DNA from: Deltaproteobacteria bacterium
GTDB taxonomy: Bacteria; Myxococcota_A; Polyangia; Haliangiales; Haliangiaceae
Reading direction: 5' to 3'
NCBI GenBank assembly: GCA_020630875.1
Contig: JAHDIH010000007.1
Location: 124,001-188,000, forward strand
DNA length: 64,000 nt
The notes under the pieces were generated by a model. The model saw only the letters and a list, made by a program, of their open reading frames with translations, was not told the origin of the DNA and made no database searches. Position numbers and translations under genes: made by a program. Shown here piece by piece: positions 7,511 through 48,800 of the stretch; the first letter of the stretch is position 1, and each line of letters starts with the position of its first letter.

Positions 7511-7598
7511 GAAACGACCATACAAAGTAAACGGTACACTCCTCAAACTAAACCGCTAATAATTTAACTCACTGGCTTTCTTCTAATAAAATGCTTCG

Positions 7599-8678: not shown

Positions 8679-9311
8679 AAATATCCAGGCGGCTACCGCT
8701 AATCCAACATTGACAACCACTAGCAGCCAAAACCATGCAGGAGACTGAGTAAGTATCTTCTGTTCGATGTGTTCGTCTACTTTTCCTCTGACGTTTTGCT
8801 GCAGAGCGCCAAGGTCCCCGGTAACTGCGCCAAGTGTGTCTTGCACTTCCGCGATGATTCCCAGAATCGGGACCTTTGACAAAAGCGAACCGAGTAAATT
8901 CTGCATCATCCCTGGCATTTCTCCGCCAACTTCCGCTGCGTATTTGTGAGCATCCTCTAACCTACCTTTATTCTTAAGTAGAGCAGTTTGGGTTGATGCG
9001 GTGCGTTCGACCACAAGATCTACTGCTTTGTGAACCATAGGTTTTCCACTTGAGTACAACAGAGAAACACCTTTTCTAAGCAAGGAAACTTTGGCAAGCC
9101 ACACATATAGAAACGGGAAAATGGCGAGGAATGCAATTCCAGCTCCAACGGCAAGCGGGGCTTGTGTCAAAGAAGCCCCCTTGATCCACGCAATAACAAA
9201 AACGAAACCAAAGATAACGTTAGCTAGTACCCCCAAGACTGTTGTTGCAGCTGAACTCTTAAGGGTACTTAGTGATTCCTGTAGGTTTTTATCCAATGCC
9301 GAGTCTTGCAC
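8670..9311 (-). CDS. Unknown membrane protein
   Basis: The 213-residue protein has three hydrophobic segments: about residues 22-44 (VLGVLANVIFGFVFVIAWI), 50-72, and a C-terminal anchor at 194-212. A soluble helical region of about 110 residues lies between the second and third. This topology would leave the middle domain on one side of the membrane. No family is recognised. It converges with corA, overlapping by nine bases, but convergent orientation gives no functional link. Confidence 0.6.
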   Translation of the reverse strand: MQDSALDKNLQESLSTLKSSAATTVLGVLANVIFGFVFVIAWIKGASLTQAPLAVGAGIAFLAIFPFLYVWLAKVSLLRKGVSLLYSSGKPMVHKAVDLVVERTASTQTALLKNKGRLEDAHKYAAEVGGEMPGMMQNLLGSLLSKVPILGIIAEVQDTLGAVTGDLGALQQNVRGKVDEHIEQKILTQSPAWFWLLVVVNVGLAVAAWIFLA

Positions 9312-9345
9312 CCCAAAACCATAGCGATGTTTGTGCCAAAAGTCT

Positions 9346-12300
9346 CTAGTGAAGGTAAACTCTTGTAGGTCCTTCCAAAGGAGTTTCTCCCAAAACTTGA
9401 TAGTCCAGTAACTGATCGTTTAGCTCCAACGCTGGCATAGTGTAACTTGTTCCCAGCGTCGGGGTGTGACCGTTCAACCTCCGTGGCCAAGTCATAGGTT
9501 GACGCCTGACATCAGCATGGGATGGTAAGGTGCCTTGATGTAACGCTTCGGGACGTAAGCCGTGCACGGGATTATTGGCATTTTGGTGACAAGACTGACA
9601 GAACGGCAAATCTGAGAAGTCAGGACGTGGGCTTCCTGCAACGAGATTCCTGTCCGACAGCCCTAGCAAATCACCTCTATCGCAGTTGCTATCGTAGTTG
9701 CGATGCACGGAGTTGCCACAAGTCGATTCTTGGTAGGCAGCAAGGGGAAAGTCCAACCCACTGTCGAGTAAGTCATCTCCGTGCGGGCGCGGGGCCCAAA
9801 CGTCAATCTGATCGCATTCTCCAGCTTTCATACTTCCGAGTGCCAGATTGCAAAAATATTCTATCTCATGGTCGTCTTGTCTGGCTGAAACGTTAAGCCT
9901 GTAAATCTTTAGTTCGTCTATCCAACCACGAAGTGGTTTGTGTTGTTTGTCTCCAGCGTCGGAATTAACACCTACGTACGCCTTGTATGTCGCATTCGGC
10001 ACGTCAATGGCTTCGTCTATTGTTCCTACAAGGGTTCCATTGATATAGATGTCACTAACACCTGACGTACCATAGTTAGCTACACCAAGATGAAAGTACC
10101 GATCTCGTGAAATTCCTGCTGAGCCTATGGAGACCGACTTTGACGTACAGCTCGAAGACGTCTCACAATTTTCGATGATGACGGAGTTCAGATCTGTCGC
10201 AATATATTTTCTATTTCCAATTGAGTAGACGGTTCTCTCTTCGCCAGGCGCCGACCTAGAATCAATCCAAAGTCCCACGTAAAAGTTTTTGTCCTGTCCG
10301 TTTAGACCATCAATGGCAATATGGTCGTTCTTACCATCTAAGAAGACACCTTTTCCTATAACGCCACCCTCAGCAACAGGTTGAACCCAACTCCCCCCTC
10401 GCAAAGACAAACTAGGAGCATTTTGGACCGTTGAAGTGTTTTGAAGCTTTGGCGTCCTTTCGAACCGAAAGTCCTGCTTGATTCCATGAGGAATAAATCC
10501 GTTGTCATCGAACATGGCGCTTTCTGTTCCAGATCCGTGCCGAACTAATGGGGCGTTCATGGGAGCGACTACGAGAGCGTCGGGATGCAAAAATTCATCA
10601 AATGCTACTTCCGCATTGTGACCTCCTTTAGAAGTTACGTACCAAACTACGTCCATCGGAGAAATAGGCGTCATTGCATCGAGGTAGTTAAATTGATTCT
10701 CAAGCGAAGATATTCGTGATGCGCCAGTGTTTCTAAATCGAGAGTTGTATCCTTGATACAGAGATAAATCCCAGCTGTATTTCTGCGCATGGTAAGCAGG
10801 CGATTTAAAGTCGGTAAGGTTTAATCCGTTATCCAGCAAGACAATTTTTCCTTGAGTCCAAGAACCAACGACAACGATACCTCGCGCGTTTGCGGAGTTT
10901 GTATGTTCATAATCTGCGGCGTCACCTTTGACGACACTTATGTGCTGCCCATCATGTTCAAACGCAGCGTCTTCCCCCCAACGCACTTTGTAACCATCTT
11001 GATTTTCCGCTAAGGGAAAGAATAAGTTATCGCCTTTTCGGTCGATCCAAGGATAACCACCATGAATTTCCTGTGTCGGTGGGATAACGTTGCCTTGTGT
11101 ATCGCGGATAGGATATTTGGCAAATCCATACTTTTGGTTCACGTTTGGATCGAGATGTGCGGCACTTAGCCGCTTAAATACCCTCCAACCCGAAGCGTCG
11201 CACGGCCCCACGGTGTTGTAGGAATACAAAATGTCCGACGGCGAAGCACCGTGGATCACCATTACCATACCGTCAGATGTTGTCGCTGGTTCGAGCAAGG
11301 CATCGTCAAAAGAAGTACCATCCCAACTCGGTATTTTTGGCATAGAATAGTTAGCATTGGGCGCGATGCTCTTTTGATCACTCAAGAAGGCACACCAAGG
11401 TTCTGGATTACTTCCTAGGCAGTCTTCATCGGCCGCCATCTTCAAGCGATCGACTTTCGCCCAGTCACAGTCTGGCTGCCCATCACCTGTAAAGTCATAT
11501 CGGCAAGCGACTTTGTCATTGTAGCTGTAGTCGTCTTTATCTGGAAGAGACATAAAATTCGTCACCGCACTGCGTGGGTAAACCCAGATGGAATCGTTGT
11601 CGGTTTGAGACGTAGCTATTTCTTTGCCATCAGGTACAAAGAGAACCAAATCGATGGATCTCAGCTCCCAACGCAAAACGGAACTACTTTCGGAAACCTT
11701 ATCGGTGGATCGGTTGGAGTAAATTGCTGTTTGTTCGTAACAATCACCATCTCTTAGCGGTTCTCCTGGATTCTTTCGCGCTTTGCAACGTCTTGGACTG
11801 TTGTTTGAGTTAGGACCAGACTTACTGCATAAATCCATGTTGAACGGATCTGTTGCCGTATTCGAAGTGAACATTCGAGCTGGATACCGGCTTTGTCCAG
11901 GAAGTGGACTGACTCTGGTCCAGGGCAGCATTCTAGAATGGCGACGCATCACTGCTTTACCGCTATCAGAAGTAGTCTGCAGTCCGTGGTCCAAGTTTTC
12001 AGGAACGAATTGAGCAATACCATCACTGCTATAGGTAACAATTCGGCCGTCCACGGAAGATCTGTGATCAGGTAGGGAATAGGATTGCTGCGGTGACTGC
12101 TTTGGTGCCCCGTAAGACTTTAACGTGCTGTCATCAGTTTCCTGAGGAGACCAATGCGGATGACTCGTAGCCATTAGCGACCTCCGCAGGCTCGGTTTGG
12201 GAGGCAGAGACGTATTGTAGCAATTAGTGACCACATCGAACCCCTCGTCCGAACACGCCACAGTGTCAACTACCGCAAGTTCTCCAAATCCTTCAGTTAA

Positions 12301-12378
12301 ATCGACAGGATCATCACTCCCCTTGGGCTTACAACTGACGAGAAGGAACGTGGCACATAGAAGATGAACATTATTCAC
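9346..12378 (-). CDS. Large lipoprotein with LamG-like domain and single CxxCH haem motif
   Basis: The 1010-residue protein starts at GTG 12378; an AAGGAGGT ribosome-binding site lies about 15 bases upstream, slightly distant. A signal peptide ends in the lipobox LLVSC, predicting an outer-surface or periplasmic lipoprotein. The middle (about 230-620) contains repeated Trp/Asp/Gly-rich segments, suggesting a propeller-like or sugar-binding region. Residues near 680-850 fit a concanavalin/LamG sandwich (VGLWIDSRSAPGEERTVYSI and YINGTLVGTIDEAI). The C-terminus has CQSCH at residues 927-931, a c-type haem attachment motif, with possible distal ligands nearby (PMTW or TMPAL). It could bind a polymer and carry electrons, but no substrate can be assigned. 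Confidence 0.75.
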   Translation of the reverse strand: MNNVHLLCATFLLVSCKPKGSDDPVDLTEGFGELAVVDTVACSDEGFDVVTNCYNTSLPPKPSLRRSLMATSHPHWSPQETDDSTLKSYGAPKQSPQQSYSLPDHRSSVDGRIVTYSSDGIAQFVPENLDHGLQTTSDSGKAVMRRHSRMLPWTRVSPLPGQSRYPARMFTSNTATDPFNMDLCSKSGPNSNNSPRRCKARKNPGEPLRDGDCYEQTAIYSNRSTDKVSESSSVLRWELRSIDLVLFVPDGKEIATSQTDNDSIWVYPRSAVTNFMSLPDKDDYSYNDKVACRYDFTGDGQPDCDWAKVDRLKMAADEDCLGSNPEPWCAFLSDQKSIAPNANYSMPKIPSWDGTSFDDALLEPATTSDGMVMVIHGASPSDILYSYNTVGPCDASGWRVFKRLSAAHLDPNVNQKYGFAKYPIRDTQGNVIPPTQEIHGGYPWIDRKGDNLFFPLAENQDGYKVRWGEDAAFEHDGQHISVVKGDAADYEHTNSANARGIVVVGSWTQGKIVLLDNGLNLTDFKSPAYHAQKYSWDLSLYQGYNSRFRNTGASRISSLENQFNYLDAMTPISPMDVVWYVTSKGGHNAEVAFDEFLHPDALVVAPMNAPLVRHGSGTESAMFDDNGFIPHGIKQDFRFERTPKLQNTSTVQNAPSLSLRGGSWVQPVAEGGVIGKGVFLDGKNDHIAIDGLNGQDKNFYVGLWIDSRSAPGEERTVYSIGNRKYIATDLNSVIIENCETSSSCTSKSVSIGSAGISRDRYFHLGVANYGTSGVSDIYINGTLVGTIDEAIDVPNATYKAYVGVNSDAGDKQHKPLRGWIDELKIYRLNVSARQDDHEIEYFCNLALGSMKAGECDQIDVWAPRPHGDDLLDSGLDFPLAAYQESTCGNSVHRNYDSNCDRGDLLGLSDRNLVAGSPRPDFSDLPFCQSCHQNANNPVHGLRPEALHQGTLPSHADVRRQPMTWPRRLNGHTPTLGTSYTMPALELNDQLLDYQVLGETPLEGPTRVYLH

Positions 12379-12471
12379 ATTGTAATATTAGCACCTCCTT
12401 ACCCGTACATGCGAGGGTAAAATTGGTCTAACCAAAAGATGGCGTCGTTACATCATGCAAAACGAAAACGC

Positions 12472-13083
12472 TTATATTCCACTGTCTACCATGGCTTCAA
12501 TGAACTCTTCGTCGTTCTTTCTATCCCATTCCATGAGTAGCTCGCCAAACCCCCTCGCATGGTTTCGGTTCTGCAGTATCGCAAAAAGAAACGATGCGTT
12601 GGGGACCAATGACCTCGATTTTTCGTGACTTATTACAATGCCATAATAGGGTTTTTCTTCTCCTTCGCATTCAAGCCACGTCTCAACTAGTTCCCACGAC
12701 ATAATCCGAGCCACTTTTGTTTTGTCGGAATCAATGCAGAGATACGCATCGTCGACGAGTCCTGCCAGCACGGCCCAGTGCTCCCACTTATCTACGCAAA
12801 CAATCACCGGGTTGCCAAGTCCTAAGGCCGAATCGATCTGCTCTTTCGCTTGCTTTGCTTCCTTGGACGCTATAATCGTCGTGGAGCATCCTAACTGTGC
12901 AGCTCCATCAATAATACCTTGTTCATCTGTCCCCCAGATGGCACTTTTCCAAAAGGGACGATTCATCGCAGCAGACAGTTGCTGCTCCGTAACAGAGACT
13001 CTCACCATCAATAACGCGTGCCGAAGGGCATGCCTTGAACAAGTTCCAGAAATCGGCCATTGCTTTTCAAAGCCCAGCCGCAC
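12472..13083 (-). CDS. Papain-like (peptidase C39-like) cysteine protein paired with an ATP-grasp enzyme
   Basis: The 203-residue protein starts at GTG 13083, overlapping the stop of the upstream ATP-grasp gene as TAGTG, so translation is probably coupled. Cys15 (in SGTCSRHAL), His102 (in WEHWAVLAG) and Asp118 (in LCIDSD) have the order and spacing of a papain/C39-like triad. There is no signal peptide, so it should act in the cytoplasm. C39-like proteins cleave leaders or act as transferases; with an ATP-grasp partner, a peptide-processing or peptide-forming role is a reasonable inference. No precursor peptide is visible next to it. Confidence 0.65.
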   Translation of the reverse strand: MRLGFEKQWPISGTCSRHALRHALLMVRVSVTEQQLSAAMNRPFWKSAIWGTDEQGIIDGAAQLGCSTTIIASKEAKQAKEQIDSALGLGNPVIVCVDKWEHWAVLAGLVDDAYLCIDSDKTKVARIMSWELVETWLECEGEEKPYYGIVISHEKSRSLVPNASFLFAILQNRNHARGFGELLMEWDRKNDEEFIEAMVDSGI

Positions 13084-14117
13084 TACTTAGTCCCCAGCTT
13101 AAATCGACGTCTGGCTGTTTTTACAATCTTATCGATAAAGTCGGTCCATCTCATCCCTGCCTCTTCGGCAGCAATGCACATCTCATGGCCACGGCTTAAG
13201 TACGGGTTTGCGTTCGCTTCTATCACCCAGAGTTGTCCCTCAGCATCCAAACGGACATCAAGCCTTGCATAGTCTCGTAACCAAAACATTCGAAATGCTA
13301 CTTTTGCAATCCGCTTGAGTTCTCGCTTTACCTCCTGCGGAAGGTCATGAGCAACTTCATTGGAAATTCCACGACGAGCTCTATAGTTCTCATCCCACTT
13401 CGCCGCTCTCGTCGCGATTTGCTGTCGGTTGCTGGCATCATCGGCAAAAATCATTTCCGTTGCCGGCAACACTTTGAGCCTGTCTCCGTTTCCAATCACT
13501 CCAGTGTACAGCTCTCTTCCCACCACGAATTGCTCCACAATCGCGGCTTCCGAGAATCTTTCGTGAACGAAATCTACTCGAGCAAAAAGCTCTTCGTCAT
13601 TGTTAACTAGAGAAGCTTGAGATATTCCATACGACCCATCTAATTTGAGGGGCTTTACGATTACCGGGAACTCAAACTTTTTACTCGGTGTTTCTCCAGG
13701 ACGGAAGATAGAAAAGTCCGGAACGTACACGCCATGATGAGCGAGAACTTTTTTGCTTAAGCCTTTGTTGCGCGTCATCATCAAAGCTGCAGGCGGGGCG
13801 CCTGTGTAGCAAATCGACTCAGCCTCAAGTAGCGCCGGAACTACAAAGTCTAATCTGTCGATAGAGCGAAAGGACTCAGTACAATTGAAAACTACATCGG
13901 GACTTTGCTGACGTAGCTGCTGAAGAAACTCAGAAGGGTCGTCAACAATCGGTGCTAGCGAGACGTTGTGTCCCTTTTCTCGAAGCGCGAAAGCAACTTG
14001 GTATTCTTGGGCAGGTTCTTCAGTCTTCCATTGAGGAATGACCTGGTCGTAGTGGTACCAGTGATCAGCTTCCGTCCAGCCAGCTAGCTCGCTATCAAAA
14101 ACCACACTGATACGCAT
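13083..14117 (-). CDS. ATP-grasp ligase, D-Ala-D-Ala ligase-like
   Basis: The 344-residue cytoplasmic enzyme has a typical ATP-grasp order: an N-terminal Rossmann-like domain (VVFNCTES near residue 75), a segment resembling the D-Ala-D-Ala ligase substrate loop (YTGAPPAALMMTRNK), the ATP-binding lysine segment FPVIVKPLKLDGSYGIS, and the Mg-binding C-terminal signature DVRLDAEGQLWVIEANANP. It should join a carboxylate to an amine with ATP. It is too divergent, and in the wrong context, for a peptidoglycan ddl; no mur genes are near. The one-base overlap with the C39-like gene marks a two-gene operon. Substrate unknown. Confidence 0.85.
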   Translation of the reverse strand: MRISVVFDSELAGWTEADHWYHYDQVIPQWKTEEPAQEYQVAFALREKGHNVSLAPIVDDPSEFLQQLRQQSPDVVFNCTESFRSIDRLDFVVPALLEAESICYTGAPPAALMMTRNKGLSKKVLAHHGVYVPDFSIFRPGETPSKKFEFPVIVKPLKLDGSYGISQASLVNNDEELFARVDFVHERFSEAAIVEQFVVGRELYTGVIGNGDRLKVLPATEMIFADDASNRQQIATRAAKWDENYRARRGISNEVAHDLPQEVKRELKRIAKVAFRMFWLRDYARLDVRLDAEGQLWVIEANANPYLSRGHEMCIAAEEAGMRWTDFIDKIVKTARRRFKLGTK

Positions 14118-14154
14118 GCTTGACTCTACCGTGCACTGGTCGACACTCGCAACG

Positions 14155-14550
14155 TTAGTCCGGCTTGTATCCCCACGACTTCAAAATTGCATTGCGATCG
14201 ATATTCGCTTTGGCAACGAAAGATGTCGGAACCGCAGAATCCGGGTCATGTTTTGCGCTCCACAAAATAATCTCCAAAACAATCGGAAGTAAATCTCTCC
14301 CCTTATCAGTCAGCGAATAAAGGTAGCGTCTGCCATCATCTGGGTCGGATCTTTTCTCAATGATGTTTGCTGCGGTCAGCGATTTTAATCTATCCGCTAG
14401 AATGTTCGTCGCGATGCTTTCTCCCGCGTCTTCAAATTCCGCGTACCGGGTTCTTCCGTAAGTCCCAATATCTCTTATTAAAAGTAGCGACCACTTGTCC
14501 CCAAAAACATCCAGAGCCCAAACGATGGGACACTCAGAGCGCCTTTCCAC
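14155..14550 (-). CDS. HxlR-family transcriptional regulator
   Basis: The protein has the HxlR winged-helix pattern: ERRSECPIVWALDVFGDKWS at the start, RTRYAEFEDAGESIATNILA as the recognition region, and DPDDGRRYLYSLTDKG as the wing. The frame stays open upstream to 14634, but that would cross the palindromic operator and the start of the divergent gene. I chose GTG 14550, which gives 131 residues and places the operator just upstream. HxlR proteins usually respond to oxidants, aldehydes or quinones. It likely controls itself and the divergent MBL-fold gene. Confidence 0.85.
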   Translation of the reverse strand: MERRSECPIVWALDVFGDKWSLLLIRDIGTYGRTRYAEFEDAGESIATNILADRLKSLTAANIIEKRSDPDDGRRYLYSLTDKGRDLLPIVLEIILWSAKHDPDSAVPTSFVAKANIDRNAILKSWGYKPD

Positions 14551-14566
14551 CGCATGACCGTAACAT

Positions 14567-14589
14567 ATCACTTGCAATATGCAAGTGAT
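14567..14589. promoter_or_regulatory. Perfect palindromic operator between HxlR and MBL-fold genes
   Basis: Two arms of ten bases, ATCACTTGCA and TGCAAGTGAT, are exact inverted repeats separated by ATA. The site sits between the chosen HxlR start and the divergent start at 14607, where a dimeric winged-helix regulator would be expected to bind. Operator function is inferred from position and symmetry. Confidence 0.75.
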
Positions 14590-14606
14590 CATGCAACAAG
14601 AGCTGC

Positions 14607-15368
14607 ATGAGCGAAGAAAAACTCCCTCCGGCATCTCCTTATCGCGATATCGATGAAGTATTTCCTAACGTATTCTTCGTGCGAGCAGGCATGAAAATGC
14701 CGATGAGAATGCCAATAAAAATTTCCAGGTCAATGACCCTCGTCCGCAAAAATGGTGAGCTAACTATCTTCAATTCCGTTCGCGTTCCTGAAGCAGGGTT
14801 AAAAGAAATTGAAGCACTTGGAAAGATTACAAAAGTAGTACGCTTAGGCGGATTTCATGGTCGTGACGACCTTTTCTACAAAGAGAAATATGGAGCCAAA
14901 GTTTACGCGGTAGCGGGACAAACTTATGTAAGAGGGTTACCATCTCCAGGGAAAGAGGCTCCTCCGACGTACATGCAGCCTGACGTTTGGATAGATGAAG
15001 GTAACACCGCGGATTTGCCCTCGGGGATTGTCAAAGTTTTTAGAACCTCAAGCCCAATTGAAGGGCTTTATATTCTCAATCAAGAAGGCGGAATTGCTAT
15101 CACTGCAGACTCACTGCAAAACACCGCCGAGCCGAACGAATTTGTAAATTGGTTTGCCAAGGTAATGATGAAAAAATTCGGTTTTTGGAAAGCCAATAAT
15201 GTGGGACCTGGCTGGGTTCAGTTTGGAAAACCTAAGGCAGATGAAGTTCGTAGTATCCTGCAACTCGAGTTTCAACATCTTCTACCGGGACATGGAGAAC
15301 CTGTGATCGGCCAAGCAAAGGAAAAGTACCGACCGGTCCTTGAAGGTGACCTTAAAGGCTGCCATTAA
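14607..15368 (+). CDS. Metallo-beta-lactamase-fold (DUF4336-like) protein without classical zinc motif
   Basis: The 253-residue protein has the segments MTLVRKNGELTIFNSVRVPE, KVVRLGGFHGRDDLFYKEKY, GGIAITADSLQN and QHLLPGHGEPV, which follow an MBL-fold order. The HxHxDH metal motif is missing; only scattered histidines (GGFHGRDD, LLPGHG) remain, so a metal site is uncertain. It is transcribed divergently from the HxlR regulator across a perfect palindrome, so it is probably the regulated target. A role in detoxification is inferred from the regulator family only. Its stop overlaps the stop of the convergent DoxX-like gene by four bases. Confidence 0.75.
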   Translation: MSEEKLPPASPYRDIDEVFPNVFFVRAGMKMPMRMPIKISRSMTLVRKNGELTIFNSVRVPEAGLKEIEALGKITKVVRLGGFHGRDDLFYKEKYGAKVYAVAGQTYVRGLPSPGKEAPPTYMQPDVWIDEGNTADLPSGIVKVFRTSSPIEGLYILNQEGGIAITADSLQNTAEPNEFVNWFAKVMMKKFGFWKANNVGPGWVQFGKPKADEVRSILQLEFQHLLPGHGEPVIGQAKEKYRPVLEGDLKGCH

Positions 15369-15973
15369 CGATTGCGGAGTTGCATCCAAGTTACCACACA
15401 CGCAAGTACTGCCGCTGGCATCATGTAGAAAGATGGTTCTGTTGGTTCAAATCCTCTAGGTCTGTAAACACCGCCGTGGGCAATGCAAGACAACAGAAAT
15501 ATTCCCAAAATAACGATTCCGCAAACGGCCCAACTTTTGGTTTCTTGGTTTCGTATCAGGTAACTCTTGTGGTTTCGTTTAACTACTCCGAGCCAAGCTC
15601 TGCGATCCCAAAAGATCAAAATACCAAGTCCTCCCAACATGCACAGCACCGTTACTATGGTTGGCAGGCCTGCTGTGGCAATGCAAAGTACCGCAATAAC
15701 TACGACAATGGGCAACAGAAGTAGCGCGCCCGCCAAAGCAAAGTATTGGGTGAGTAGTAATAGCGCGCCCACAACTTGTAGTAGTCCGACAAAGTGATAA
15801 AGCAATCCGGTGTCGTAGAAAGCATGAAGAAACTCATGAAATGCCCCGGTATTTCCAGCATCGGTAAACCTCTGCCCAATCAGTTTCTTGGTGCCGGCAG
15901 GAAGAAAACCAAAGCCAATTGCCAATCTAAGAAGCGCTATTAACCGCGTTTTGGTTTCAAAGCTTGGCAACAA
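15365..15973 (-). CDS. DoxX-like membrane protein, last gene of the NiSOD operon
   Basis: The 202-residue protein starts at TTG 15973, overlapping the end of sodX by 17 bases. It has a DoxX-like beginning (LIALLRLAIGFGFLPAGTKK), hydrophobic helices near residues 60-80, 82-102 and 104-122, and two more near 145-165 and 182-198, so it is a five- to six-helix inner-membrane protein. DoxX relatives take part in quinone or thiosulfate redox and membrane oxidoreductase complexes. The overlap with sodX indicates cotranslation with the superoxide dismutase genes, a link I infer rather than know. Confidence 0.75.
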   Translation of the reverse strand: MLPSFETKTRLIALLRLAIGFGFLPAGTKKLIGQRFTDAGNTGAFHEFLHAFYDTGLLYHFVGLLQVVGALLLLTQYFALAGALLLLPIVVVIAVLCIATAGLPTIVTVLCMLGGLGILIFWDRRAWLGVVKRNHKSYLIRNQETKSWAVCGIVILGIFLLSCIAHGGVYRPRGFEPTEPSFYMMPAAVLACVVTWMQLRNR

Positions 15974-16286
15974 CTCGTCCCATTATCTGGCTGGATGCTA
16001 TCGCCCCAAAATGCCGGCTGTCCCGTCCCTCATCCGGGTTGTCGCTGGAAAGCCAATACTGTCCAAAGGAAACTTTCTCTACCCTTTTTACAATGGGAAT
16101 CGAAAGCATCGGATGAGTAGCAACCACCACCATCCCAGGCTCAACTATCGCCTTTGCATCAACAAAGAGATGGTCTCCCTGCGCAATGGTAGGCATCATA
16201 CTCGCGCCATCAGCGCGAAAGCGAACGTACCGCCCCAACACCCAACCAAAGAGGGTCTTGGGACGGAAACTAAGAGATTCAGCCAC
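15957..16286 (-). CDS. sodX: Nickel-type superoxide dismutase maturation protease
   Basis: A serine protease of the S26 (signal peptidase-like) family that removes the NiSOD leader so that His1 can bind nickel. The Ser/Lys dyad is visible: Ser29 in DGASMMPT and Lys67 in IVKRV. The characteristic tail WLSSDNPDEGRDSRHFGAI is complete. I chose GTG 16286, which overlaps the sodN stop by eight bases and gives 109 residues; the longer open frame to 16382 lies inside sodN. No N-terminal membrane helix is obvious with this start, consistent with a mainly soluble form. Confidence 0.88.
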   Translation of the reverse strand: MAESLSFRPKTLFGWVLGRYVRFRADGASMMPTIAQGDHLFVDAKAIVEPGMVVVATHPMLSIPIVKRVEKVSFGQYWLSSDNPDEGRDSRHFGAIASSQIMGRVVAKL

Positions 16287-16755
16287 CTGCGAGGTAGAAG
16301 TCGACGTTACGACCTTTGGCTTTCCAAAACATATCGTGAATTTGTTTGCATGCATCGATAAGTTCGTCAGCGTGCTGTGCACTAACTTCTACTTTGCACG
16401 CAGAGCAAAGCTTCGTGGCTTTCCAAAAAATGTCATGAAGATCTGGAAAATCTTTTAGATGTGCTGGCTTGAAAAAGTCAGTCCAAAGAATGAGCAGGTC
16501 ACGCTTGGTGTGTTCCGCTTGCTCTTCTTTTACGGAAATATAACGACTTAGTTTGTTATTGTAGTCTGCGACAGCCTGAGCGTCGCCGGCATCTGGAGGC
16601 GTTAGCGCCAAAATCTTTTTGGTCATAGAACGAACGGCTTCAGCGTAGATTCTCGCCGATGCAGGATCGTAGATGCCGCATGGAGCATCGCAATGAGCAG
16701 AGGCTGTTTGAGCCGGAGCGATAACGTCAATTGCATTCAATAGTTTTTTAATCAT
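16279..16755 (-). CDS. sodN: Nickel superoxide dismutase
   Basis: The enzyme dismutates superoxide to oxygen and hydrogen peroxide at a nickel centre. The 158-residue precursor has a 20-residue leader ending QTASA, followed by the nickel hook HCDAPCGIYDP (His21, Cys22, Cys26), which provides the nickel ligands after cleavage. The rest is the expected four-helix bundle, with the conserved segments HTKRDLLILWTDFF and IFWKATKLCSACK. ATG 16755 lies two bases after the stop of the upstream microprotein (TAG-GA-ATG), and sodX overlaps the end, so the three genes are coupled. Some homologues are cytosolic and some are exported; this leader lacks a convincing secretion signal. Confidence 0.95.
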   Translation of the reverse strand: MIKKLLNAIDVIAPAQTASAHCDAPCGIYDPASARIYAEAVRSMTKKILALTPPDAGDAQAVADYNNKLSRYISVKEEQAEHTKRDLLILWTDFFKPAHLKDFPDLHDIFWKATKLCSACKVEVSAQHADELIDACKQIHDMFWKAKGRNVDFYLAGG

Positions 16756-16757
16756 TC

Positions 16758-16949
16758 CTATTTTTCCTTTCGACGTGAACTTCTGAAAAGAACGATGGCC
16801 GCTGCTGTCGCGAGAGGAAGACCTATCCACAAAAGATGAATTAGTCCCGAGCTTGCTTCGCCATGGTCGTGACCAGGGTGAGCATGAGCCACAGCGGTAG
16901 CACTTAAAGTGACCAAAGCAGCTGTGATTGTTGATTTTGTTAGTTTCAT
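16758..16949 (-). CDS. HupE-like His-rich exported microprotein upstream of sodN
   Basis: The 63-residue protein begins at ATG 16949 with AAGGAG six bases upstream. It has a signal peptide ending AVAHA, then HPGHDHG, then one hydrophobic helix (LLWIGLPLATAAAIVLF) and a basic RSSRRKEK tail. The HPGHDHG motif after the signal peptide is the N-terminal nickel-binding signature of HupE/UreJ nickel permeases, but the remaining helices of HupE are absent. Its position two bases before sodN suggests it delivers or binds nickel for NiSOD. That role is inference from motif and operon. Confidence 0.75.
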   Translation of the reverse strand: MKLTKSTITAALVTLSATAVAHAHPGHDHGEASSGLIHLLWIGLPLATAAAIVLFRSSRRKEK

Positions 16950-17064
16950 TTTCTACTCCTTGCCCGCAATTTTTCACAAGGCTTCCTGTCTCGTCCATAG
17001 CCAAGTGCAAAAAGTTGGGATTAGCGGAAGCGCCCACTCAGAATGCCGTGTTAAGGTGTTTTCG

Positions 17065-17874
17065 ATGGAACGAATGAGACTCGGTAGAAGACTAAGGCGC
17101 GTCTTACTCATTATTAACCTGAAAACGTTGCTCATTACCCTGCTTGCCGTAGCCTCCACGGCGTTCTGTCGTCACTACCAAATCTATGCGGAATTCCCTT
17201 TGACGCTAATCGCGACGTCCGTGGTCTTTCCTATCGTTTTCTCTATCGGCGGGGCCTACAAACGAAGGGAAGCAGCACTCGACAAATACGGTACGCTCAA
17301 AGCCTACGGTCGCGCCATCTACTTAGCAAGCCGGGACTGGCTGCCAGGTTCTACCATCGAGATTCAAGAAGAAGCGAAGAGCCGAATCGGCGAAGTGTTG
17401 ATGTCTTGTCGGACGATGTTCACGAGTCCAACAGACGAAATCGTAGCTAACGAAAAACCCGTATACGAATCATTTTCGAAGCTTTCAAATTTTATCAAAG
17501 TGGGCTTGCGCGCAGAGGGCCTCCCCTCTGGTGAATGCTCTCGTTGTAATCAGTACGTAAGTAAAATGCTCCTCGCTTTTGAAGACGTAAAACACATTTA
17601 CCAATACCGAACGCCAAGAACTCTTGCAGCTTTCAGCGATATTTTTATTAGACTCTTACCTCCACTTTATGGTCCCTATTTCGCAGCTGTGGGAAAAGGC
17701 TATTCCCATGTGGGGCTAATCTACGCAATGCCGGTGGTACTCAGCGTTATTTTGGTCAGTCTCGATAACATCCAAGAACATCTTGAGAACCCCTTCGACC
17801 AGGTAGGAGAAGACGATGTGGAAATCAATGCTCAGAAGTTCATCGAAAGCCTTAAACCGGTTACTGGTAGTTAA
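17065..17874 (+). CDS. Bestrophin-like membrane protein (tentative)
   Basis: The 269-residue protein starts at ATG 17065; the open frame upstream runs into the sodN operon leader and is not credible. Two hydrophobic helices at the N-terminus (LLIINLKTLLITLLAVA and FPLTLIATSVVFPIVFSIGG) precede AYKRREAAL, a pattern similar to the entry region of bestrophin-family channels. Two more hydrophobic segments lie near 205-245, followed by an acidic C-terminus. If bestrophin-like, it would be an anion channel, but the assignment rests on pattern similarity. It is divergent from the NiSOD operon. Confidence 0.55.
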   Translation: MERMRLGRRLRRVLLIINLKTLLITLLAVASTAFCRHYQIYAEFPLTLIATSVVFPIVFSIGGAYKRREAALDKYGTLKAYGRAIYLASRDWLPGSTIEIQEEAKSRIGEVLMSCRTMFTSPTDEIVANEKPVYESFSKLSNFIKVGLRAEGLPSGECSRCNQYVSKMLLAFEDVKHIYQYRTPRTLAAFSDIFIRLLPPLYGPYFAAVGKGYSHVGLIYAMPVVLSVILVSLDNIQEHLENPFDQVGEDDVEINAQKFIESLKPVTGS

Positions 17875-17895
17875 AATAGACGCTATGGTCAACCC

Positions 17896-18159
17896 GTGTG
17901 TCGTAACATCAAAACCCTTCACAACTTTTTGCCGCCAGCCACCGAAGAAGAGATTCTAGCTTCTTCGCTGCAATACGTACGAAAAATTGCTGGGACTAGA
18001 AAGCCGTCAAAGGCCAATGAAGAGGCATTTGAACTGGGCGTTCAAGAAATCTCGGAAGCAACAAGAAAGCTGCTCAACGCTTTGACAACAAACGCCCCTC
18101 CCAAAAATAGAGAAGTCGAAGCAGCTAAGAAAAAGAAGCGTTTCCAGAATCGAAGATAG
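17896..18159 (+). CDS. DUF2277 family protein
   Basis: The 87-residue cytoplasmic protein starts at GTG 17896. It begins CRNIKTLHNFLPPATEEEI and continues with LQYVRKIAGTRKPSKANEEA, the DUF2277 signature known from many bacteria, including actinobacteria and proteobacteria. Its function is not known. A lysine/arginine-rich C-terminus could contact nucleic acid. It follows the bestrophin-like gene by 21 bases and precedes a lipoprotein gene by 19, so the three may be one transcript. Confidence 0.85.
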   Translation: MCRNIKTLHNFLPPATEEEILASSLQYVRKIAGTRKPSKANEEAFELGVQEISEATRKLLNALTTNAPPKNREVEAAKKKKRFQNRR

Positions 18160-18178
18160 AATGTGTTAGGGTAGGTCG

Positions 18179-19009
18179 ATGCGACCGCTGCTCGTACTTA
18201 GCTTGCTGTTATTGGCTTGTGAAAAAGACAAAACCCGTGGAAAAGTCTCCGCGAGACAAACCTCCAGCACTGCGGTAGCAGCCCAAGGACCATTCGGAGA
18301 CAAAGACTACTTAGAGAAACTCTATCTGTGTTGGCAGCGTAATGCTTATCAACCAGCATTCCCTACCAACAGGGATGGCAAGAAAGAGTATGTCGCCGGA
18401 ATAAATGGCATCGTTTACTATGGTGACTTGCCTCGCTGTTTAGACGGAGACGAAGAGTCAAAAGATTTCAAAGATATCTCTCAGATAGAAAAAGTCGCCG
18501 GCCTGAAACTAAAAGAAAAATCTGAACACGGACTATTTGAGCACTATAATCCTGAGATCATCACGTGGGGAATTCAAACTCTTATCCCCAACCCAAAGCA
18601 AAAGATAGGAGACATCACAGCCAAAGCATTCTACTCACGCGCTATGAAGAGGTACTTCCGGCTCATGGCCGAGGCGTATATCGTTTTGCTCCAGCGCGGA
18701 GACGTTCAAGCGCAAGTGGACGCTTACCTGCTCGCAGGCTCCAAAGGTTTTCCGCTATTCGATGACGGCGTTGATTACCTACAACACCAATTTCGCGACT
18801 GGCTACCCTACCCCGACGTCAGAGATACGATAACGCTCACTCCACAGATGGCCATCGGTTTTTGGTTGAGAAGACATCATGATAAAACCTCTGGTGAACT
18901 TTGGCGAGGACTTGAAATTATCCTTACTCATTACGACTCCGATTGGTACGCGACCGTCAGAGCCAAATATCCCACGGCGGCATCAAAGCTGACGAGCAAG
19001 CCGAATTGA
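18179..19009 (+). CDS. Lipoprotein of unknown function
   Basis: The 276-residue protein has a short signal peptide with the lipobox LLAC (Cys14) followed by Glu-Lys-Asp, which predicts outer-membrane rather than inner-membrane retention by E. coli rules. The mature part is mainly helical with several Tyr/Trp-rich segments (HYNPEIITWGIQTLIPNP) and no catalytic motif I recognise. Its last 27 bases overlap the end of the convergent thioredoxin-like gene. Confidence 0.65.
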   Translation: MRPLLVLSLLLLACEKDKTRGKVSARQTSSTAVAAQGPFGDKDYLEKLYLCWQRNAYQPAFPTNRDGKKEYVAGINGIVYYGDLPRCLDGDEESKDFKDISQIEKVAGLKLKEKSEHGLFEHYNPEIITWGIQTLIPNPKQKIGDITAKAFYSRAMKRYFRLMAEAYIVLLQRGDVQAQVDAYLLAGSKGFPLFDDGVDYLQHQFRDWLPYPDVRDTITLTPQMAIGFWLRRHHDKTSGELWRGLEIILTHYDSDWYATVRAKYPTAASKLTSKPN

Positions 19010-19489
19010 CTTTTTTACGGCAGACACGCCCATCCCCCTGTATGCCAGAGTTCCATCTCGCTTGAATAACATCACGGTGGGAGTACCAGTAATTTTCCAG
19101 CGTTTATGAAGTTTTCTTCCTTTATCGCGAAGTAGTGTGAACCCCACTTTCTTCAAAGCTCCATATCTGCGGATCGTTCTCATTTTTTGATACGACACGC
19201 CAAACACCACAGGACCATTTTCCCCAGAACGTTTTGAAAGTTTTCCGAGACTAGGGTGAGTCGACTTACACCAACCACACCAGGTGGCCCAAAATTGGAT
19301 CAAAACAGGTCTACCCAGATGGCTGCTCAACTTGGGATCGTTTTTGCCATAGCCAGCTTGCAGTTTGATATTGTCGGCACTCGATAACGTTGCCTGCGAC
19401 TGCAGCAGCAATGCCAGTAGTAAGGCCATAGCAAATACTATCAACGCGCACAGACGGTGTAAATTGTTCTTTTCGCTCTCTGCCTGCAA
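18983..19489 (-). CDS. TlpA/thioredoxin-like membrane-anchored disulfide protein
   Basis: The 168-residue protein has an N-terminal membrane anchor (about 14-32) and a periplasmic thioredoxin fold. The active site reads WATWCGWCKS (Cys71, Cys74) and the cis-proline loop reads TGTPTVML. It resembles TlpA/ResA proteins that reduce periplasmic disulfides, for example for cytochrome c maturation or protein repair. The electron donor is not evident nearby. The 3' end overlaps the convergent lipoprotein gene by 27 bases, the longest such overlap in the window. Confidence 0.88.
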   Translation of the reverse strand: MQAESEKNNLHRLCALIVFAMALLLALLLQSQATLSSADNIKLQAGYGKNDPKLSSHLGRPVLIQFWATWCGWCKSTHPSLGKLSKRSGENGPVVFGVSYQKMRTIRRYGALKKVGFTLLRDKGRKLHKRWKITGTPTVMLFKRDGTLAYRGMGVSAVKKSIRLARQL

Positions 19490-19555
19490 ACGCTGTCATA
19501 ATGGAATGATTGGTAACCTATTTGCATCATTCGACACTACGGGTAAGGTCGCCCT

Positions 19556-19969
19556 GTGGACCACAAAATTCTAATTATCTGCATGTTAATCCAAGTATTG
19601 TGGACGTTGATGCTCTACGTGAAACTAGGTTTAGCGAAATCACGAGCGTTTAAAGTTGGCGGTTTTGACAAAAGAGCTGCGGCACATGATGACTCCGTTT
19701 GGCCACTGCAAGTACGACTTATCAACAACAACATCAACAATCAGCTCGCGAGTCCTACCTTGTTTTTCGCCTTAGCTCTAACACTCCTTGTCTTGAGTAA
19801 AGCCGACGGAGTATCCTCCGTGATGGCTATCGGATACGTCGCCAGCCGCTGCATTCATTCCGTAGTTCACATTACCTCCAATCGGGTTTCGATTCGCCTC
19901 CCAGTTTTTGTCGTATCTCTTTTGATACTACTGGCTATGACCGTTCGCCTGTTCTTTCAGATTTGGTAG
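19556..19969 (+). CDS. MAPEG family membrane protein
   Basis: The 137-residue protein starts at GTG 19556 and has four hydrophobic helices. The segment RLINNNINNQLASPTLFFAL matches the glutathione-binding N-x-x-N-x-E/Q-x-P-x-LF region of membrane-associated eicosanoid and glutathione metabolism proteins. Bacterial members are poorly characterised; a role in glutathione or lipid peroxide chemistry is possible. It lies alone between the thioredoxin-like gene (divergent) and the large peptidase-like lipoprotein. Confidence 0.8.
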   Translation: MDHKILIICMLIQVLWTLMLYVKLGLAKSRAFKVGGFDKRAAAHDDSVWPLQVRLINNNINNQLASPTLFFALALTLLVLSKADGVSSVMAIGYVASRCIHSVVHITSNRVSIRLPVFVVSLLILLAMTVRLFFQIW

Positions 19970-20042
19970 TATTGCCAAAAAATTGCCCCCCTTTTGTCCT
20001 CCAAAAAGAAGCTCGATTTACTTCAGAGTGATAAGCTGTGGC

Positions 20043-23000
20043 GTGGGGAAAGCTACTTGGACTATATTGGCTTGCGCAATAGCCGCAACAGGGTGCAAAC
20101 AACCCAGCGTGGAGTCCGCTCCAGAAGAAGAAGTCTGTCCTAAAACCCAAAAGTATACAGGCCTGCTTCCCGCCACCTCAGACGACCACCTCTCGGTTGA
20201 TTACTGGCTCAACAACCTCAATGAAAAAGTCGACCTCGATGCGGCTCTTCTTACTGATGCTCAGATAGATACGCTAAGCCAATCTATGGTTGCGCCTCGT
20301 CCGGGATACATCAAGCGCAGAAACTTACTCGATCCCATGGTGCCAGAAGTCGTTGCTGACAAGATTTTGGACCGCGTCAACTGGTACGAAAAAAAACTAG
20401 GAAAAGACTTTGCGGACTCCCAAAAGTTTCGCGACGACCTTCAGAAACCCGCAACTCCCTACAACCGTGCGCAGTGGCATATCGCTTTAGATCGTATTCC
20501 TATGACGTGCGCTCCATCGAGTGTCACTGTTGTCGATCAAGACACGCTAGATCCACGTATCGACCGTAATGCCTGTGGCGCCGTATTTTCGCAAGAACCA
20601 TTCCGAATCGTTGCTGAATCGGGACCATTCAAACTTGCTCAAACCGAACTGAGTTGGGGATGGATAAGCGACGGTTCCGGTAAATCCGTGGTGGTGGAAA
20701 AAAATGAAATTCTGCCTTTCATTGACGGTAATTTCGTCTCTTTATCTGAAGACACGATAATAGAAGGCATGCCCCTGAGAAAGCAATCAAGGCTTCCCTT
20801 CTCCGAGGGCTCTGTACTTTTTGCTTCCCCCAAGGGAGTCGCAAAATCCAAACTGGAAGCTGCATCTATGGCTCCGCGGAAGTTCAGTCGTCGTAACATA
20901 TTGGAAGCTGCATTTAGCTATCTCGATGCTGAGTACGGCTTTGGGGGAAAGAACTCCGGGATTGATTGCTCAAGATTTGTAGAACAGGTCTTTGCACCTT
21001 TTGGCGTTGAGCTGCCGCGTCATAGTAGCTGGCAATCGAAAGCTACATCCTATTACCTAGACGTGGAAGGAATGCCGGTAGAAGAAAAGAAAAGAGTATT
21101 GGAGCAGGCTAATAAGAGCGGCATGCTTCTTTTGGAGATGCGCGGCCATATTATGCTGTACCTTGGACAAGACGATGAGGGCATCCCTATGGCCATACAC
21201 TCCATGGGGCATTTCCTTACGCTGTGCGACGAAGAAGTAGGAGAAACGAAACAACTTGTGGACCGAGTCGTCGTTAGCGACCTTTCATTGGGTGCAGACA
21301 CCTCAAAGACATCCCTATTAGAAAGGATTAAGCGCGTAGCCGTTATTGGAGATTTTCCTGATGGAGACGCGCTTCATGGCTTAGCGATATACCGTCCTGC
21401 AGCGCCGATGCAGAGACCGACCAATGCTCAGTGCAAGGAAGCGGGAAAAGGTGGACTTTTCACGGCTCCACTTAAACCTCACGAAAAGGGAGCCCTACGA
21501 GTGCTGACCACTCGCATTAAAAAGCCTGGAGCGGCATCCCTTCACTTTTTTCCTCCGCAAGAAGGAGAAGATGTAGCGTTAGATATCGCCTATACTCGCG
21601 GTCCGCCTTGGGGCGTCATTGGAACGGTAAATCAACCATCCCATGGACTTTGGACTGTAGCTTTGGGAGATGGACAGCAGCTGCTGGGATGCCGGCAAAT
21701 TAAAGTGCGTAGTTCGTTTAGAGCAAGTAAAGGCATGCATGGTGATACTGCGTGGAGACTGCGCTCAAAATGGAGCCAGCAAAAAGAAGACTTGTATGCC
21801 ATGTTCATCGAAAGACTTTTTGACTATCCGCAAGACCAAACCATTACCTGGAAAAATCTTCATACCCTGCTTCGTGACCCAAGCAGAAACATTCTCCACA
21901 ATTATCTGGGACTACGCGAAGAAGAAAACACTAAAATGGTCCCAGACTGCGCCGACTTGCCTTACGCATTACGTGCTTACTTTGCATGGAAACTAGGGCT
22001 TCCATTCGCTATGCACAGATGCACCAGAGGAACGGATGGTAGACCACCAAAGTGCAAACCAGATGTAGACAATCTGTTTCCACGTACCGCTTTGGTCACC
22101 AATGACAAAGAAGCTCTAAAGTTGCACCAAGCGATGCGAGATGGAGAAGACGTCCCCGACTTGCAAGAGCTGGAGGACGCCTCCATGGAACCTGTAGAAG
22201 TCGAACAACGTAGTCGAGTGGAAGGATTCGCAGCACTTTTTAGAAAAACCCAACGCTCATCGCATTCTTCGAGCGGACGAACGATGCCAAAGGATGAGCT
22301 TGGAGATTTCTACCCAGTGCCTCTTTCTAAAAATACGATTCGTCCTGGCATGATGTTTATCGATCCGTACGGCCATCTGATAATGGTTGGCCGATGGCTG
22401 CCGCAAACAAAAGAAGGTAGTGGTTCTCTAATTGGTATTGATGCGCAACCGGACGGCACGATTGGACGACGAAAATTTTGGCGAGGATCCTTTCTCTTTC
22501 ATCCAGGCACTCATGCAGGTGGTGCCGGGTTCAAAGCGTTCCGACCGGTTTTTTACAACAAGGACACTGAAAAGATTGAATTTCTAGAAAACAAAAAACT
22601 AAGAAGAAAAACCTATAGGTATTCATTAGAACAATACGAAGGTGACGAAAGTGCCTTCTATGATAAAATGCAACAACTCATTAACCCAAGGCCTTTGGAT
22701 GCAGAGACGCAACTTGCAGACCTCGTTTCCGCCTTAAAACAACAAGTCGTCAGACGAGTGACGTCGGTCAACAATGGAGAAGACTACTTAGCGAAAAACA
22801 GTGATGCCCCGATGGAGATGCCCGAAGGCAAAAGAATTTTTCTTACTACAGGGCCATGGGAGGATTTCGCAACACCTTCACGTGACTGGAGGCTGTTGGT
22901 TGCGATTCACACAGTACTCGACTTTCCCAGCGCAGTAGGACGCAATCCGACTCAGTATGGGGTGTCGGTTGCCAATGGCGCACAGGAAAAAAATAGGTTG

Positions 23001-23276
23001 GTTGACGTCATGAATGAAATGCTTTCTAAAGAAAAGTTTGAATACACACGTAGCGATGGTTCCATGTGGGAGTTGTCATTACGCGACGTAGTTTTCAGAA
23101 AGGTTGAGCTCGAGATGGCCTACAATCCCAACGACTGCCCTGAGATTCGATGGGGAGCCACTTCCGAGAACGAAAAAGAATTCACTACCTGCCAGCGTCA
23201 CGCGCCTAAGGAGCAGATCGAAAAAATGAAGCAGTACCGCCATTGGTTCAGTGAGCGCCGTCGTCCCGCGACCTGA
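20043..23276 (+). CDS. Lipoprotein with two tandem cysteine-peptidase (NlpC/P60-like) domains
   Basis: A protein of about 1077 residues. I chose GTG 20043 because it places a short signal peptide before the lipobox AATGC; GTG 20028 and TTG 19983 are alternatives. The first domain contains GIDCSRFVEQVF (Cys309) and GHIMLYLGQ (His369), a classical NlpC/P60 pair. The second contains PDCADLPYALRAYFAWK (Cys636) and YGHLIMVGRW (His778), a more divergent cysteine domain of the same general fold. Such domains usually cut peptidoglycan stem peptides or act as amidases. Two apparently active sites in one lipoprotein is unusual. Envelope remodelling is inferred. Confidence 0.78.
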   Translation: MGKATWTILACAIAATGCKQPSVESAPEEEVCPKTQKYTGLLPATSDDHLSVDYWLNNLNEKVDLDAALLTDAQIDTLSQSMVAPRPGYIKRRNLLDPMVPEVVADKILDRVNWYEKKLGKDFADSQKFRDDLQKPATPYNRAQWHIALDRIPMTCAPSSVTVVDQDTLDPRIDRNACGAVFSQEPFRIVAESGPFKLAQTELSWGWISDGSGKSVVVEKNEILPFIDGNFVSLSEDTIIEGMPLRKQSRLPFSEGSVLFASPKGVAKSKLEAASMAPRKFSRRNILEAAFSYLDAEYGFGGKNSGIDCSRFVEQVFAPFGVELPRHSSWQSKATSYYLDVEGMPVEEKKRVLEQANKSGMLLLEMRGHIMLYLGQDDEGIPMAIHSMGHFLTLCDEEVGETKQLVDRVVVSDLSLGADTSKTSLLERIKRVAVIGDFPDGDALHGLAIYRPAAPMQRPTNAQCKEAGKGGLFTAPLKPHEKGALRVLTTRIKKPGAASLHFFPPQEGEDVALDIAYTRGPPWGVIGTVNQPSHGLWTVALGDGQQLLGCRQIKVRSSFRASKGMHGDTAWRLRSKWSQQKEDLYAMFIERLFDYPQDQTITWKNLHTLLRDPSRNILHNYLGLREEENTKMVPDCADLPYALRAYFAWKLGLPFAMHRCTRGTDGRPPKCKPDVDNLFPRTALVTNDKEALKLHQAMRDGEDVPDLQELEDASMEPVEVEQRSRVEGFAALFRKTQRSSHSSSGRTMPKDELGDFYPVPLSKNTIRPGMMFIDPYGHLIMVGRWLPQTKEGSGSLIGIDAQPDGTIGRRKFWRGSFLFHPGTHAGGAGFKAFRPVFYNKDTEKIEFLENKKLRRKTYRYSLEQYEGDESAFYDKMQQLINPRPLDAETQLADLVSALKQQVVRRVTSVNNGEDYLAKNSDAPMEMPEGKRIFLTTGPWEDFATPSRDWRLLVAIHTVLDFPSAVGRNPTQYGVSVANGAQEKNRLVDVMNEMLSKEKFEYTRSDGSMWELSLRDVVFRKVELEMAYNPNDCPEIRWGATSENEKEFTTCQRHAPKEQIEKMKQYRHWFSERRRPAT

Positions 23277-23307
23277 CGAAGCAGGTAGAATCTGATAGCG
23301 TCTTGAG

Positions 23308-24384
23308 GTGAAGTTTCAAAACCTCCAAGAGATCAAATCGAAAGCTCTAACCATCCTGGACGATAACGCGCGTAACTATTATTGCAGCGGAGCTTGCGAC
23401 GAAGTCACTCTTTCCGCCAATCAAATGGCTTACCAAAACATCGAGCTACTTTTTCGAGTAATGGTAGACGTTTCCCGTATCGATACCTCTGTAGACATTC
23501 TTGGAACACGCCTCTCCATGCCCGTATTGATTGCTCCAACCGCGTTCCATGGGCTCGCGCATCAAGACAAAGAGCTCGCAACCGCTCGCGCCGCCAAAAA
23601 GCGTGGTTGCCTGTTTATAAACAGCACACTCTCTAATACTGCAGTGGAAGACATAGGACCAATCGCTCCCTTCTGGTTTCAACTGTACGTCTATCGCGAC
23701 AGAGTGCTAACAAAAGAACTTATCGAGCGCGCCGAAGCCGCCGGTGCAACCGCCGTTGTGCTGACGGTAGATGCTCCGGTGCTTGGCCTTAGAGAAACAG
23801 ACAGCCGCAAAAGTTTCGTCTTGCCCTCACATCTAACGTGCGCCAATCTGGAGTCTTACAACTTCACTGAGATCTACCAAGCCGATGATGGCTCTGGATT
23901 AGCCAATCATGTGGGAAAGCTTCATGACGCTTCACTGACTTGGAAAGACATAGAATGGATGCGATCTATCTCAAAGCTTCCAATCATCGTAAAAGGAGTG
24001 GTCCATCCAGAGGATGCGCGTATCGCAACAGAATCAGGAGCAAGCGGTATTGTAGTATCCAATCATGGTGGACGCCAACTGGATACCTCGATCAGTACCA
24101 TTGAAGCACTTCAAAGGATCTCGCAAACGTTCGACTCTAAGCATCTTCTATTGGTTGATGGGGGAATCAGACGAGGGACTGATATTGTTAAGGCCCTAGC
24201 CGCAGGAGCTGATGCGGTCTTAATCGGCAGGCCAGTGCTTTGGGGGCTCACCGTCGGAGGACAATCAGGAGTAGAGAAAGTTCTAGAGACATTAAGAAAA
24301 GAATTCGAAAACGCGATGGCGCTTTGCGGCGTCACCAGTATCGACAAAATCTCCAAAGATTTACTTGTAAAAAAGGCCGGGTAA
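23308..24384 (+). CDS. FMN-dependent alpha-hydroxy acid oxidase/dehydrogenase
   Basis: The 358-residue enzyme oxidises a 2-hydroxy acid such as lactate or glycolate to the 2-oxo acid using FMN. The catalytic His253 and Arg256 sit in SNHGGRQLD, the family signature. Other conserved parts are LIAPTAFHGLAH, FQLYVYRDR, VLTVDAPVLG and the FMN phosphate-binding VDGGIRRGTDIVKALAAGA. No membrane segment is seen, so it is more like soluble glycolate/lactate oxidase than membrane LldD. It starts at GTG 23308. Its stop codon lies within the terminator of the convergent lipoprotein gene. Confidence 0.92.
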   Translation: MKFQNLQEIKSKALTILDDNARNYYCSGACDEVTLSANQMAYQNIELLFRVMVDVSRIDTSVDILGTRLSMPVLIAPTAFHGLAHQDKELATARAAKKRGCLFINSTLSNTAVEDIGPIAPFWFQLYVYRDRVLTKELIERAEAAGATAVVLTVDAPVLGLRETDSRKSFVLPSHLTCANLESYNFTEIYQADDGSGLANHVGKLHDASLTWKDIEWMRSISKLPIIVKGVVHPEDARIATESGASGIVVSNHGGRQLDTSISTIEALQRISQTFDSKHLLLVDGGIRRGTDIVKALAAGADAVLIGRPVLWGLTVGGQSGVEKVLETLRKEFENAMALCGVTSIDKISKDLLVKKAG

Positions 24385-24395
24385 ATTACCCGGCC
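24369..24395 (-). terminator. Rho-independent terminator for the lipoprotein gene, nested in the oxidase stop
   Basis: The hairpin arms GGCCGGGTA and TACCCGGCC are perfect with a three-base loop. Read on the minus strand the hairpin is followed by six T, a typical intrinsic terminator for the gene at 24419-25174. On the plus strand the stem contains the TAA stop of the oxidase gene and has no T tract after it. Confidence 0.85.
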
Positions 24396-24418
24396 CTCAA
24401 ATTGAAACGATTAGTAAT

Positions 24419-25174
24419 CTACTCGATGGCAAGTTCCACATCGACATGAGCTACCGACAATGTAGTCCCCTCCGTGAAAGGAGCAATTGGTCCCGACTCG
24501 CTTTTCTGCTCGGTCCGCAGTACTACGATGTAGTCGGAGTTAAGATTTGCTTCCTCTCCCTCTTCAAGACTATTCCAATCAAAGTTAACGACACCTGGCG
24601 CTGATATTTCATGATCAAAATGGTTCGGACACTTTCCATTTTCCCATACGCTAAAGTTCGCCATGACGTTTACCTCCGCGGGTTCATAATTTAACTCAAA
24701 ACCAGCCTGAAGATCGGGAAGCACATCTCCATCAACAAAGTTGGTAATAGTAATCGGTTGCTGCATGGGCACTTGAGTAAGGTGCGTTTCGCCATTAGCG
24801 TCAGTAAACTCGATATCCATGGTGGTTTGGCCAGGTTCGATTTCTATAAAGTCTGAGTAATACCCTTTAGACGTCGACTCCCTGTATTGTAAAACAACGC
24901 CGTTAGCTGTAATTTTTTGCCCTTCGTCGAATTCAACGTAAGTCCTACGCCAAACTCCATCTATCGAGTTGTCCATGAAGCTGGCAGTTAGATTCACCGC
25001 AACCTTTGAAGTTGTCGCAAAGTCTGAAACTTGGACGTCCACTTCATAGGTTTCCAGTACTTCAGAGGATCCTCTAGTATTTGGGGAGCTGCCTGCAGCA
25101 CCCTCCCCATCCTCTACGGAGGAACAAGCGGCAAACGAAGAAATAAGTGCTGACGTAAGAATGACTCGCTTCAT
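24419..25174 (-). CDS. Lipoprotein of unknown function
   Basis: About 251 residues starting at ATG 25174 (MKRVILTS); ATG 25183 is the longer option. The signal peptide ends in the lipobox FAAC. The mature part is acidic and beta-rich, with sequences such as TYEVDVQVSDFATTSKVAVN and an Asp/Glu-rich pattern, consistent with a secreted immunoglobulin-like or calcium-binding fold. No motif identifies a function. A strong intrinsic terminator follows. Confidence 0.65.
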   Translation of the reverse strand: MKRVILTSALISSFAACSSVEDGEGAAGSSPNTRGSSEVLETYEVDVQVSDFATTSKVAVNLTASFMDNSIDGVWRRTYVEFDEGQKITANGVVLQYRESTSKGYYSDFIEIEPGQTTMDIEFTDANGETHLTQVPMQQPITITNFVDGDVLPDLQAGFELNYEPAEVNVMANFSVWENGKCPNHFDHEISAPGVVNFDWNSLEEGEEANLNSDYIVVLRTEQKSESGPIAPFTEGTTLSVAHVDVELAIE

Positions 25175-25284
25175 GAACATCATTCAACCACATGTAGTTA
25201 CAGGTGTCTACTCAATTATTGGTCTGTCCAAAGTACAATGCCACGCCATACTTCTACCGTTTATAACAGTGTTAGTTTTCTGCT

Positions 25285-48799: not shown

Positions 48800-48800
48800 C

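Follow-up and report, generated by a model that had tools for sequence, protein, structure and literature searches.

The nickel superoxide dismutase (NiSOD) operon in the window (the whole 64,000-nt stretch of DNA analysed here) begins with a gene for a 63-residue microprotein, and this gene is real and recurrent, being found directly ahead of sodN in 11 distinct genomes, beyond what chance would give. The reading that we lean towards, at slightly better than even, is that the microprotein, anchored in the membrane, would capture nickel in the periplasm for NiSOD as an accessory to an importer. Only a few organisms, those with SodT or HupE, offer much of an account of how NiSOD obtains its nickel, and the microprotein is a recurring candidate for this supply within the operon. 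Its relatives, moreover, would lead to a first functional hypothesis for the Pfam family DUF6732 (PF20506), i.e., nickel and cobalt acquisition, because NiSOD is the link for one branch of this family and the insertion of cobalt into vitamin B12 that for the other.

The 63-residue reading frame that the first-pass annotation had placed at 16758–16949 is present there on the minus strand (MKLTKSTITAALVTLSATAVAHAHPGHDHGEASSGLIHLLWIGLPLATAAAIVLFRSSRRKEK), together with a strong ribosome-binding site, and its stop codon precedes the sodN ATG by 2 nt, the spacing that had been reported (Table 1). A signal-peptide-like leader (hydropathy maximum 1.95) and one hydrophobic segment further on agree with the single membrane helix that had been claimed, and the predicted mature protein comprises 40 residues (HPGHDHGEASSG) starting with HPGHDHG. 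An invariant His (residue 38) is situated at the start of the predicted transmembrane helix. The identity of sodN is certain from the profile search (TIGR02753, E = 4e−57), as is that of sodX downstream of it (TIGR02754, 67.5 bits, E = 1e−18). No DoxX-like gene was found beside sodX in the relatives that were read; complexes of DoxX with superoxide dismutase are known from Mycobacterium. Upstream of the operon, neither a consensus promoter nor an inverted repeat was found.

Table 1. Features of the microprotein–sodN operon, numbered from the first letter of the window
Feature	Position	Strand	Basis
Ribosome-binding site AAGGAG, strong, 6 nt before the microprotein ATG	16956..16961	-	Sequence
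Microprotein gene, 63 aa, DUF6732-like, sodN-linked	16758..16949	-	ORF, profile comparison, pattern scan
Predicted Sec signal peptide, residues 1–23, AHA before His	16881..16949	-	Inferred from sequence
Mature tip HPGHDH (His1, His4, His6), putative metal site	16863..16880	-	His1, Gly3, His4 invariant in 11 members
Predicted single transmembrane helix, residues ~36–54	16788..16844	-	Hydropathy of 2.15 across a 19-residue stretch
Basic C-terminal tail RSSRRKEK, predicted cytoplasmic	16761..16784	-	Sequence, positive-inside rule
sodN, nickel superoxide dismutase; HCDAPCG hook after a leader of 20 aa	16279..16755	-	TIGR02753, PF09055
sodX, S26/S24-type protease for NiSOD maturation; ORF open to 16382, so that the start is uncertain	15957..16290	-	TIGR02754
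DoxX-like membrane protein, overlaps the end of sodX	15365..15973	-	PF07681, 26.1 bits

A search for the same pair in other genomes, which the first-pass annotation had proposed, recovered a similar microprotein just ahead of sodN in ten more genomes, from the Myxococcota, the Gammaproteobacteria and one MAG labelled Planctomycetota (two or more phyla); the sample consists mostly of MAGs. Within the phylum of the window, sodN was found in 29 of 379 genomes and follows the microprotein in the window's own genome (G000) as well as in G001, G012, G072 (Plesiocystis pacifica), G246, and G293. Among the Pseudomonadota, sodN was present in 5 of 359 genomes, four of which have the microprotein directly upstream (G435, G448, G729, and G599), and the MAG loci named as bearing the pair are L044 (Gammaproteobacteria, the genome G435) and L045 (labelled Planctomycetota). 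The spacing of the two genes, from stop codon to ATG, varies between −11 and +39 nt across the 11 genomes. A strict pattern that required an AxA-type site, H-x-G-H, a helix, and a short tail matched nine times in 1.46 million strand-bases of sodN loci, and every one of these matches was located no more than 100 nt upstream of the codon for the NiSOD hook. In the loci that were read, the genes on either side bear no relation from one locus to another, which indicates that the small cassette itself is the conserved unit. The myxobacterial loci of two sets were considered as separate cases and rejected as such, five pairs being the same genomes.

On a SodN tree based on few columns, six of the eight pair-bearing rows fall inside one clade of twelve, and a single origin of the pair was not supported, with six changes on the tree. 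Many sodN loci are without the microprotein, which is therefore not essential to NiSOD as such, and some of its relatives are encoded away from sodN, one of them in a genome where sodN was not found. A tblastn search of plasmids with the microproteins returned nothing useful, and no publication on the microprotein–sodN gene pair was found in our literature searches. In gammaproteobacterial cassettes a further small gene, TPR/DUF2753-like, precedes that of the microprotein (L176:7209-7655, L177:7534-8079, and L179:8743-9213).

The predicted mature start is His-x-Gly-His in all 11 microproteins, and their alignment shows four invariant positions (His1, Gly3, His4, and a later His), the overall identity to the window protein being 25–35%. 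Each member has between four and six His among its first 16 mature residues, and the predicted cleavage site is an Ala-His junction throughout, with AxA in most cases. Outside the phylum, a gammaproteobacterial copy matches the window protein best (47% identity over 47 aa, E = 1e−10). In a congeneric pair of species, the microprotein genes differ by 15, 9, and 27 changes at the first, second, and third codon positions, respectively, in 40 codons, the third position being dominant.

Pfam and NCBIfam searches with the window protein alone gave membrane-anchor noise and no significant family, and no relative was found in the PDB. Its score against DUF6732 (as P0001) was 9.5 bits, below the curated cut-off of 27 bits, and the placement in this family thus rests on the sodN-linked relatives, most of which matched DUF6732, with scores of 13.1–39.8 bits, two of them above the cut-off (39.8 and 28.6); the gammaproteobacterial L044 copy had no DUF6732 match. 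In profile–profile comparisons the sodN-linked set and the canonical DUF6732 members aligned over 96% of their length, and the mature parts scored 24.2, compared with a maximum of 14.5 among 200 column shuffles. Removal of the H-x-G-H tip left a score of 18.8, which likewise none of 200 shuffles reached. Such comparisons place the sodN-linked microproteins with DUF6732, the function of which is uncharacterised, rather than with HupE. The family and the window protein have in common a predicted signal peptide, a His-x-Gly-His start, a second His cluster, and one helix, whereas the canonical members carry an acidic tail and are encoded before cbiX, and the sodN-linked ones have a basic tail and stand before sodN. 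Our literature search found no papers mentioning DUF6732.

The first-pass annotation had described HPGHDHG as the nickel-binding start of HupE/UreJ permeases, which holds for the position of the histidine but was overstated for the motif, given that His directly follows the signal peptide in 9/9 sampled HupE/UreJ proteins and HPGHxH is present in only one of them. Homology to HupE beyond this tip is not supported. The window protein did not match HupE/UreJ (PF04955) at E values up to 5, and the sodN-linked set scored 14.6 against the HupE N-terminus in profile–profile comparison, a value that fell within the shuffled range once the tip was removed. Published work on HupE describes an HX5DH motif in the first helix, which is visible in most of the HupE sequences sampled and absent in 11/11 microproteins. 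As the tip-less score is lost among the shuffles and this motif is missing, the likeness comes down to the exported His-first tip, and the two otherwise differ in architecture, HupE/UreJ having a multi-helix permease domain and the microprotein one predicted helix in 63 aa.

Genetic links to nickel and cobalt use were found for both branches. All seven strong DUF6732 loci in Pseudomonadota (L162–L168) lie directly before cbiX, a CbiX-family cobaltochelatase gene, and in at least one confirmed locus the precorrin-8X methylmutase gene comes next after CbiX; this adjacency links the wider DUF6732 family to nickel and cobalt use. One gammaproteobacterial sodN cassette is located beside cobO, cobS, and cobT. 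On a plasmid of Novosphingobium sp. RL4, a full HupE/UreJ (PF04955, E = 8e−47; L185:3251-4457, where the record is unannotated) beginning with HPGHEH occupies the microprotein's place directly before sodN. Marine picocyanobacterial sodN loci carry, together with sodN and sodX, the gene of SodT, a nickel transporter of the UreH family for which a role in nickel supply has likewise been proposed, although it has six helices and the microprotein a single one (PMC4284471). Taken together, the Novosphingobium HupE, SodT, and the nickel and cobalt gene links suggest that the slot at the head of sodN operons is one for genes of nickel acquisition.

The neighbourhoods of cbiX also bear on whether the microprotein could regulate SodX or sodN translation, or serve as a membrane adaptor to either, its histidines being put to some other use. 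The close spacing of its gene and sodN (2 nt in the window and within the range given above elsewhere) would suit such a role, which we nevertheless judge to be very unlikely, as the tip is predicted to be exported and is conserved at the amino-acid level, and sodX was not seen in the DUF6732–cbiX neighbourhoods.

The first-pass annotation had further suggested that the microprotein replaces a full permease. In the window's genome this part agrees with the search results, HupE_UreJ, HupE_UreJ_2, NicO, and CbiM not having been found there, and the permease HupE_UreJ_2 was also not found in the L045 MAG. Replacement as a general rule is not supported, because each of the other five genomes with the pair in one comparison encodes HupE_UreJ_2, as does the gammaproteobacterial G435, so that the microprotein normally coexists with a permease. 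The same counts weigh against a minimal donor that hands nickel straight to NiSOD in place of a permease, as had been supposed, a scheme which the operon position, the His-rich tip, and the permease search in the window's genome would favour. NiSOD is cytoplasmic (PMC8346466) and the tip of the microprotein is predicted to be periplasmic, which makes direct transfer unlikely; the NiSOD leaders of most relatives are not signal-peptide-like, that of the window SodN being borderline (maximum hydropathy 1.58). We thus attach very little probability to direct donation.

Small subunits such as the CbtB- and CbiN-like ones offer an analogy for the microprotein as the core of an importer. By this analogy, an oligomer of the microprotein might form a nickel channel or a minimal importer core, for which the conserved His at the helix start, the HupE in the equivalent slot of Novosphingobium, and the result of the permease search in the window's genome could be cited. 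The single predicted helix shows no polar conservation further into the membrane, the HX5DH of HupE is lacking, and the relatives retain permeases, and we regard this reading as quite unlikely. Its more specific form, in which the 40-residue single-helix peptide would, as an oligomer and in a genome with no recognised nickel permease, be the nickel importer dedicated to NiSOD, or the core of it, appears improbable; if true, it would rank among the smallest metal-uptake units known. In two distant genomes, genes for ArsP_2, a 10-helix putative heavy-metal exporter, lie next to the sodN cassette (L176:8751-9968 and L045:1752-2897), and it is possible that these are partner transporters of the microprotein.

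In the nickel-capture accessory that we favour, the microprotein would be exported, cleaved by signal peptidase, and anchored in the inner membrane as a protein of the DUF6732 type, with the free N-terminus His-Pro-Gly-His-Asp-His predicted to face the periplasm. Nickel would be bound through the amino-terminal His and the neighbouring His residues, presumably with some selectivity, and cobalt would take its place in the related branch that is linked to cobalamin. The metal would then be presented to an inner-membrane importer, for which the permease search in the window's genome gave no candidate, a point against this reading, and would enter the cytosol, where SodX would trim SodN and SodN would fold around the nickel. 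With its gene in first place of the sodN–sodX operon, nickel capture would be expected to rise with the demand for NiSOD. A similar capture by an N-terminal His ahead of an importer has been proposed for the anglerases Ang-1 and Ang-2, which are fused to HupE_UreJ_2 (PMC12537917). They differ in that the N-terminal-His domain of Ang-1 is a beta-sandwich covalently joined to the permease, and the mature microprotein is a separate peptide of 40 residues.

The anglerases also bring up another metal, most likely copper, as the ligand, or a microprotein that buffers metal and thereby protects the NiSOD pathway. N-terminal-His domains on HupE/UreJ-2 hold copper more tightly than nickel, with Kd values for Ang-1 of 74 nM for Cu and 220 nM for Ni (PMC12537917), and a heavy-metal RND efflux cluster is present in the window, but the genetic links that were found are to nickel and cobalt genes, and we consider this option unlikely.

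The assembly that contains the window is 96.9% complete with 6.1% contamination, and at least 19.9 kb of the window (5844–25744) is duplicated exactly between contigs C6 and C9. The second copy of the microprotein gene, on C9, was accordingly rejected as a paralogue and is taken as assembly redundancy. A search with PADLOC found nothing. The efflux cluster extends over 44888–55409 of the window and encodes a glutaredoxin–MauE fusion, a histidine kinase, a sigma-54 regulator, a cupredoxin, and CusB-like and AcrB/CusA-like proteins. Between 40271 and 43286, a phage-type integrase is encoded near a 577-aa protein without Pfam match, a region that looks like a small mobile element.
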